This document shows positions 28,001 through 31,000 of a DNA stretch of 64,000 nucleotides, in pieces. Source of the stretch: Cristatella mucedo (lineage: Eukaryota > Bryozoa > Phylactolaemata > Cristatellidae). The DNA lies in NCBI GenBank assembly GCA_009760855.2, contig WPIO01000028.1, forward strand, positions 870,001 to 934,000, in the 5' to 3' direction. How positions within the stretch are numbered: the stretch's first letter is position 1; each line of letters opens with the position of its first letter. The translations under genes and the position numbers were made by a program. The notes below the pieces were generated by a model, which did not search any database, was not told the origin of the DNA, and saw only the letters and a program-made list of their open reading frames with translations.

Positions 28001-31000
28001 ACGGAGCCTCCGGCGTGGCCGACGGCGAGTCAGCGTAACCTTTCGCTGCAGACATTCCATTCGAATGCCTGCGAACGCGGCGCCGAGAGTAGATTTTGCC
28101 AGGAATGGCATAGCACAAACGAACAGCAGCCATGACTGACGGCCCCTACGCAGCACCGCACCTTGGCATCCGGGCACCTTGGCATCCGGGCACCTTGGCA
28201 TCCGGGCACCTGGGCATGCGACAGCGACGAACTGGCCGCATCGCCAAGGGGGTGGTACTCGCACCCGCGCTTCATGCACTTTCATCACTCTGGACGCCGC
28301 GGCATCGGTGACAAAAGCGCGACAATAATCTCCGGGCTCCTCAGCTTCGCCTTGCGGGGTGCGTTATGCAAGAGGGGAGCAGCGCTGCAGAGGCGACCGG
28401 CCGACGATCGACGAGCGTTCGCTTCCGGCTCTTCGGGCGCTTCCGGCACTTCGGGCGCTTCCGGCGGCTTGCACAGCAGCGAGGCGCGCGGTGAGGCGCT
28501 CGAAGTTACCCGCGTCGTCCGACCTCAGGTTCAGCAAGGGCATTCGCGACGCCTGCTCGGCCGCTCTTTCAACTCCGTCGATGGCCGCGTCCAGCATCGC
28601 GCTCTTTATGTCCAGCGTGTCGATGAAGGCATCTTTCCCGACGTGCAGGTACGGGAAGGCGGCGGCCGCCGCTGCCGTCTCGCTCCTGCAATCGCGGCAA
28701 GCAGAGCAGTCAAGCCGCGCGCCGGCGGCGCGCGGCCCGAGGCGCACCGTCCCCTCCCCAGCCACCGCGCGCTCGCGTCCGAAGCGAACGCCCGGATTGC
28801 CGCCGCCGCTGCCGTCGGCAGCGCTCACCCGCACTCCGTGGCGGCTTTCAGGGCGGCGCGAACTGCTTGCGAGACCAGGCAGCCGCGAGCGAACTGCGCG
28901 TAGAACTCGCGGAAGAACTTCTCCATCGCCGAGCTGGGTACGCTGAGCGGAAATATCAGCACACTCTGAGCTCCTGCAAGAGAGAGCGGTGCAGTGTTAA
29001 TTGCAGGCGCCAAAAGCGCGCCGCCGCAGCCGCGCCAAGCGGCGGCGGCGGCGGCGGTGGCTGCTCAGCTAGAACCAGGGCCGGGCTCCCACGAGGACCG
29101 CGACTAGCGCCGCTGCAGCGCATCTCTCTCTCTCTCTCTCTCTCTCTCTCTCTCTCTCGCGCGCGCGACGCTCCGTTCCTCATACCAAGAGCAAGCTCAA
29201 ATTAAGGAAGGGGAAAGCGGCTGTGCAATCGGAGATCGGGCGCAACTAGGAAAAAATCGCTCGCCGCCAGCAAACCACTTGTGATTGAAAATAAAATAAA
29301 ATAAAATGAGCGAAGGGTCGCACGAGAGGGGATAGGAATGCAGAGCAGAGAAGTGTCGAGAGAGAGAGAGAGAGAAAGAGAGAGAGAGAGAGAGAGAGAG
29401 AAAGAGAGAGAGAGAGAGAGAGAGAGAGAGAGAGAGAGAGAGAGAGAGAGAGAGAGAGAGAGAGAGAGAGAGAGAGAGAAGGGAGAGAATTAGCAAGCAG
29501 AGACCACCAGATACGTATAGGAGGGGGATAAATGTATTTTAAAATCACCTAAGTAAAAGATAAAAGAGTGAGGTAAACGGTGCACGCAGAGACGGGGATT
29601 CTCCAGAAAATCGAAACACTAGTAAAGAGTCGATCGAAGCTAGAATAGCATGCAAAAAGTCTATCGAGCGCAGCCACAGTGCCAGTCTCTCGCTGCCTGC
29701 CAGCGCTGGCCAACATCAGGGCTAAGCTTTTCTCGCGGCGTGCGATCTGCGTGCTGCGAGCTGCGCGTGGCGCGAGACGACAGCGCCCCTTCACGTGCCG
29801 CCGGCTTCTGCTTCTTCGATAGCGGCAGGGAGGGTGGCAGTAAGCTGCTGCTGCCGCGACGCCAGCTCTGCGTTCACCGGCCGAAAGAAAAGCCGTCGCC
29901 AGCCGAAATATGCCGCTTGAGCCGATCTGCTGGCGATCGAGCTGCTTGGAGACGGACGACGCCGCGCCGCCGCTGAGAACGACGAGCGTCGCCCTCGTCC
30001 CTGCGCTCACGATGTCCTCGCAGCTCACGACGTAGTGTCGCTCTTCCACCGGTCTCGACAACAGAGGACTGCCATGGTGGTCGTCCGATGCCATCGCTAC
30101 GAGGCCGTTGCGTAGGTCCATGTAAGTAGCTGCAGCAGGCGAAAGATCCTCCGTCAGTCAGCGAGTTCTGAGAAGGGGGCGTGCCGGACCGGAAGCGGAA
30201 CGGCAGACTCTAGGCGTAGGCTGTCGCCCACTTTGGAGTTCGATTTGACTTTGTCGCTGCGCACTTTTGTAAATATGTAAATAAATAGTAAATATCAAAG
30301 GAAATTCCTAATGCACAGGCTCGGAAAATTCCTGGCGGATGAGTGCGAAATCACGAAGTGAGATCATTTCTCCTAGATTGTTCTGGCTGGGCCCTAGGGT
30401 AAAGGTGCTAACCTTATGGGATCGCGGTCGTGGGCTCGAGCTTGCGGCATATGTGAAGCACCTGGATAGAGATTCAGTTCTCTTACGGCGCCTTAAAAAT
30501 GAATCACATGAATTATACATATGTACTATACATATATTTTAATTTATATCGTGGGTACGAGTTACGCAGCAGGTAAATCATTATCGCCTTCTGCGAGCGG
30601 GGTTGAAAGCCGCAGCGGCCCATTACTGCGCCATATAAATGAGTCTGTTGAATCCTACACAGCCGCAGGTATTAGCCCAGAGTCGAGGTGCTCGCAATTC
30701 ACTTTCCTAGTCGTGGGTTGAAGTCCGAAAGAAGAAAATCATTTGAAAAGCACCGCAAGCAGGAGTAATAAGACCTCAAGCTCGTACGCCGCCATACAAG
30801 TGAGGCAGCTACGTTGGCTGCTCTATATATTTATCCTCTACGCAACAAATGTCCAATTTCATCAGCGGCTTGTGTACGCGTGTGGCCGATGCTCATTTTT
30901 CATCTCTCATTTTTGCATGTGCTATCAGTTTTCTGTGCGCCTCAGAGGAAACTGTAACCGCGTCGAGAAGCCCACGCACCGCCGGTGAGCTGGAGTGGCT

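Follow-up and report, generated by a model that had tools for sequence, protein, structure and literature searches.

The TPR-CHAT gene of the window and its surroundings

The window, which is the whole 64,000-nucleotide stretch of Cristatella mucedo DNA analysed in this work, carries a TPR-CHAT gene on the minus strand. The gene was modelled with eight exons (exons 3 to 10) from 42324 to 26938. The exons are listed in Table 1 together with the two codons that fall on the catalytic columns of the CHAT domain. All seven modelled introns are of the GT..AG type with compatible phases, and the spliced model reads through 1384 codons without a stop; the other two frames of the same model contain 36 and 11 stops. 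The borders of exons 3, 9, and 10 were placed by splice letters and open frame only. The GC content of the gene is 0.857 at third and 0.53 at second codon positions. Exon 6 was placed once in the 572 Mb assembly by a DNA search that scored the best candidates only.

Table 1. Exons of the window TPR-CHAT gene and codons on its catalytic columns.
Feature	Coordinates	Strand	Content or basis
Exon 3 (TPR-like)	42141..42324	-	GT..AG borders and phase
Exon 4	38319..41187	-	within a 1056-codon open frame; splice borders; Pfam TPR and CHAT
Exon 5	35565..35734	-	CHAT; last residues LIHL and the first base of the Ala codon
Exon 6	29878..30129	-	part of CHAT that contains both catalytic columns (ATY ... 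VVLSGG)
Exon 7	28829..28973	-	CHAT (GAQSVLIFPLSVPSS...)
Exon 8	28510..28685	-	last part of CHAT and first part of the region behind it
Exon 9	27258..27391	-	behind CHAT; splice letters and phase only
Exon 10	26938..27160	-	behind CHAT (...GFDIEDVG...); splice letters and phase only
Tyr codon TAC	30122..30124	-	on the catalytic His column of CHAT
Gly codon GGC	29966..29968	-	on the catalytic Cys column of CHAT

The spliced protein matches the Pfam CHAT family PF12770 with 81.2 bits (cut-off 24, E=1.2e-22), and five Pfam TPR models score above their cut-offs N-terminal to the CHAT domain. The architecture is therefore that of a TPR-CHAT protein. Exon 4 encodes the TPR array, a poly-Gly linker, the first half of the CHAT domain, and a long low-complexity insert, and it extends to the residues GNPTMRDG. 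The region behind the CHAT domain matches no Pfam family and no plasmid record. Translated frames near the gene give matches to TMEM192 at E=4.6e-15 and, at E=1.4e-11, to a proteasomal ATPase domain.

Several other features were observed in the window. A CCG run at 39321-39400 (26.7 copies) encodes a long poly-Gly stretch within the linker between the TPRs and the CHAT domain. A tRNA-Asp gene is located on the plus strand at 34922-34993, within the intron between exons 5 and 6. Two perfect inverted copies of 748 bases are found at 46114-46861 and 63253-64000, where the second copy reaches the edge of the window, and by eye the frames at 46036 and 63308 resemble the end of a retroelement. A dispersed repeat family of 138 bases occurs at 18965-19102, 27481-27618, 31466-31603, and 62265-62402, and we guess that it is perhaps a SINE. 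A perfect tandem array with a 17-base unit (5.4 copies) is located at 59213-59303.

The catalytic columns of the CHAT domain

Exon 5 joined to exon 6 reads LIHLATY and then VVLSGG. The Ala codon is split at this junction, where exon 5 gives one base and exon 6 gives the rest, followed by Thr and Tyr. Exon 6 begins with base 30129, and the Gly codon ends with base 29966. The motif LIHLATY that spans the junction corresponds to IIHLATH in Anabaena, and VVLSGG aligns with VVLSAC in Anabaena. The splice is argued to be correct because LIHLAT is rebuilt across the junction.

The preliminary description of this DNA had proposed that both catalytic positions are replaced, the His by Tyr and the Cys by Gly. 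The coordinates and letters agree with this proposal, and so does the alignment with 16 plasmid CHATs and 80 genome CHATs; neither residue of an active CHAT peptidase is present in the window gene. The Tyr and Gly are residues 1077 and 1129 in the model of exons 3 to 10, and their spacing of 52 residues matches that of Tyr1159 and Gly1211 in the earlier numbering. Each replacement is one base apart from the catalytic codon (TAC from CAC and GGC from TGC), so a polymorphism or a base error is possible at either position.

The plasmid CHATs come from 29 records found with tblastn (best E=1e-20), part of which are annotated as TPR-CHAT, and both His and Cys are present in all 16 that were fetched. 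The genome CHATs are the 80 best among 395 relatives; their identity with the window CHAT is 25-31% over the best segment. The Cys is present in 77 of these 80 and the His in 79, where the His count is biased because the loci were found by a pattern containing ATH. Both residues are also present in 29 of a further 30 loci, drawn from the top of 464 Pfam matches across 8 cyanobacterial genomes; four of the 30 coincide with places among the 80. The one locus with neither residue (L136) is a locus of the first set (L093) found again. The window protein is similar to the cyanobacterial TPR-CHAT proteins in that both belong to PF12770 by profile, but the dyad is mostly kept in the cyanobacterial proteins.

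The same columns were located on proteins of the PDB. A profile built from the window CHAT and 15 plasmid CHATs matches 8rot_B (E=4.7e-11) and places them there on His and Cys. The match of this profile to 7x8a_D is weak (E=5.2e-4, best stretch i-E 0.054) and again places the columns on His and Cys. By residue count in this weak alignment, the columns are H585 and C627 of the Craspase TPR-CHAT protein, and these two residues are named as its dyad (PMC9729208). When the window CHAT was searched against the PDB with plain phmmer, the two matches obtained (E 0.038 and 1.3) were taken as chance.

The window protein is comparable with Csx29 and the Craspase TPR-CHAT protein of type III-E CRISPR systems, which are also TPR-CHAT proteins and carry their dyad on the same profile columns. 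It differs from them in that they are RNA-activated peptidases whose dyad is intact and has been tested (PMC9729208, PMC10028731). The protease activity of Craspase is reported to be abolished by C627A or C627S (PMC9729208), and that of Csx29 by the double mutation H615A/C658A (PMC10028731). Peptidase activity of the window protein is very unlikely since the nucleophile is lost.

The changes in the window gene extend beyond the dyad. The Gly after the His, the Ala before the Cys, and the Thr two residues after the Cys are all replaced, and exon 7 has Leu in place of a Trp that all 80 bacterial CHATs share (the best 80 of 395 relatives). The upstream His of the IHL motif, which is present in 80 of 80 genome CHATs of the same selection, is retained. 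Of 110 columns with a conservation of 90% or more among the 80 bacterial CHATs, 45 are retained in the window gene. Core residues that are kept include P32, L36, P40-F41, G88-N89-P90, H150-T153, and L200-S204 (numbering of the CHAT query).

A peptidase that is still active, whether by a different junction, by an alternative exon, or by use of other residues, would be compatible with the retained IHL His and with the His and Cys residues found nearby in exon 6 (DDHH, EERH, and VVSC). These other His and Cys residues fall by eye on columns that are not catalytic, and the neighbours of the dyad positions are altered as well. An alternative junction that supplies ATH was searched for from 28000 to 38315 of the minus strand, and no acceptor followed by [G]CN-ACN-CAY (Ala-Thr-His) was found there. 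An acceptor followed by Ala-Thr-Tyr occurs at a single site in the same range, which is the one in use. Acceptors of any kind that would put a His there were found at two sites between 28000 and 35564 (35172 and 28498), and both were rejected because the downstream reading, judged by eye, is not CHAT-like. We consider an active peptidase to be exceedingly improbable.

A second TPR-CHAT gene and the identity of TTC28

A search of the Cristatella mucedo genome for the CHAT family gave two matches, both on the contig C66 (1935336-1935854 and 1936572-1936751); the single exons of the window gene are each below the threshold of this search. The protein of exons 6 and 7 used as query also recovered C66 (E 0.027) besides its own exons, and its other matches (E 0.15, 3.4, and 6.9) were taken as chance. 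The first half of the CHAT domain used as query in the genome recovered only itself and not C66, which means that this search misses diverged relatives. The presence of two TPR-CHAT genes in Cristatella mucedo fits the report that, anthozoans aside, most metazoan species carry no more than one or two genes of this kind (PMC12314368).

The C66 gene keeps the catalytic His (VVHVAAHVSWK) and has Gly at the Cys column (VVLSSGHT). It retains 67 of the 110 strongly conserved CHAT columns compared with 45 of 110 in the window gene. The CHAT domains of the two genes share 25.5% identity (66.6 bits). Human TTC28 presumably keeps ATH and reads VVLGSS at the Cys site. For comparison, a provisional sequence of part of human TTC28 was used; against it, C66 shows 47% identity in the CHAT domain (276 bits) and 46% in the hand-assembled region behind CHAT (189 bits). 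Against the same provisional sequence, the window CHAT shows 26% identity (78.6 bits, where the best of 60 shuffles reached 21.6), and the window region behind CHAT reaches 18.5 bits, which is below the best shuffle (20.8). The gap between the two genes is wide, although these comparisons serve as leads and not as tests.

The TTC28 ortholog of the Cristatella mucedo genome looks like C66 rather than the window gene, as judged with the provisional human sequence. Since C66 is far closer to this sequence, the window gene would be a paralog, and a comparison of it with vertebrate TTC28 would mix two genes. The preliminary description had called the window domain a TTC28-like CHAT domain. A CHAT domain behind TPRs, with both catalytic columns replaced and part of its core kept, is supported; the window gene as TTC28 itself is not. 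If the window gene were the TTC28 ortholog, TTC28 would have lost its His in this lineage, as was first suggested. The TPR and CHAT architecture, the missing Cys, and a short match behind the CHAT domain (GFDIEDVG/GFDLLDVG) agree with this suggestion. The better preserved C66 gene keeps the His, and the provisional human sequence matches C66 in both regions where it matches the window gene significantly in the CHAT domain only. An orthologous relationship of the window gene to TTC28 is thus very improbable, and the claim that TTC28 lost a His that vertebrates keep is not supported, since C66 as the likely TTC28 has it. We read the His loss in the window gene as most likely a further step in the decay of a paralog and not of TTC28.

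With C66 as the representative of TTC28 (TPRBK), the window gene and TTC28 are similar in having a TPR array followed by CHAT and, in C66, Gly at the Cys column. They differ in that C66 has the His (AAH) and the conserved Trp, whereas the window gene has Tyr and no such Trp. The window CHAT also has a long low-complexity insert, and no CHAT intron position is common to both genes (4 positions in the window and 3 in C66).

The relationship of the two genes was examined with a tree of 44 sequences that consists of 27 of the 80 genome loci, 15 of the 16 plasmid loci, the window gene, and C66. The tree groups the window gene with C66 at 94/89, where the grouping is not starred and carries a warning that long branches meet there. 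In view of these values, the long branches, and an odd composition, the grouping is not firm. The end branch of the window gene (8.3) is 2.4 times longer than that of C66 (3.4).

A separate animal TPR-CHAT lineage, which split from TTC28 or was acquired independently of it and lost its dyad on its own, was also considered. The absence of a common CHAT intron position is in agreement with such a lineage. So is the comparison of the regions behind CHAT, where the window and C66 (hand-assembled in this part) give no significant similarity (z 1.3, with 61 of 500 shuffles equally good). The score between the window and C66 is also below the median that the window CHAT reaches against bacterial CHATs, which is 99.8 bits for 81 subjects (the 80 genome loci and the window CHAT itself). 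However, the bacterial branches are shorter, and they may outscore C66 against any long branch. The tree places the two animal genes together, and each carries Gly at the Cys column. A separate lineage is therefore unlikely, and an old duplication followed by fast change in the window copy would be the likeliest history of the two genes.

Loss of the dyad and possible function of the window protein

The constraint on the window frame was assessed with a neutral simulation where bases were redrawn from the third-position make-up without indels. Out of 200 runs each, the frame was still open in 79 with 2% of sites redrawn, in 30 with 5%, in 13 with 10%, and in 0 with 20%. Selection appears to have kept the frame, because the divergence of the gene far exceeds the simulated range and the frame is open. 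A decaying pseudogene, in which the loss of the dyad is part of a general decay, would agree with the long branch of the window, with the limited number of conserved columns retained, and with the 13 runs that stayed open even at 10%. It is at odds with an open frame of 1384 codons, the consistency of the splice sites, the difference in GC content between third and second codon positions, the retained core CHAT residues, and the closure of all runs at 20%. We regard a pseudogene as very unlikely. The window gene is probably a working, catalytically dead TPR-CHAT gene and a fast-changing paralog of TTC28, as far as the sequence can tell.

A pseudo-enzyme is a likely reading of the window gene, and the likeliest role of its protein would be that of a non-catalytic scaffold. 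The TPR array would hold partners, and the emptied CHAT fold would serve as a binding or regulatory surface. TTC28 itself has been reported in a preprint to bind the intracellular domain of Dachsous1b and to limit microtubule dynamics in zebrafish (PMC12132318). The roles of its TPR and CHAT domains have been called not well understood (PMC12314368). The passages of the literature that were found do not mention the catalytic residues of TTC28, and no paper linking TTC28 with a pseudoprotease was found among them. A second gene with a fully emptied site offers a natural comparison, where features common to both genes are unlikely to concern catalysis. The decay of TTC28 should not be read from a paralog.

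The Cys may have been lost in the common ancestor of the window gene and C66 or separately in each of them. After this loss, the His would have been unconstrained and would have changed to Tyr in the window gene only. Loss of the Cys was also identified in three of the 80 bacterial CHATs (best of 395, found by ATH). The locus of an uncultured cyanobacterium (L019) reads LSAS at the Cys site and that of Calothrix sp. PCC 7103 (L047) reads LRAG; both keep the His. The locus of Nostoc sp. WHI (L093) has an open frame with neither residue (HLATQ and LSAS) and adjoins a CHAT with HFATH and LSAC. It belongs to the set selected by ATH because the locus also contains this second CHAT with its ATH. These three loci are possible bacterial pseudo-CHATs by their residues. 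Loss of the His only was not found among the 80 bacterial CHATs of this ATH-selected set. An order in which the Cys is lost first and the His later would fit these few sequences.

We suggest, as a rather doubtful extension, that animals with two TPR-CHAT genes split the work between them. TTC28 would keep a half-kept site, and the emptied paralog would become a dedicated peptide-binding scaffold, where the stepwise loss of Cys and then His could be followed across species. The pair in Nostoc sp. WHI, an emptied CHAT beside an intact one, is a parallel to such a split between two genes.
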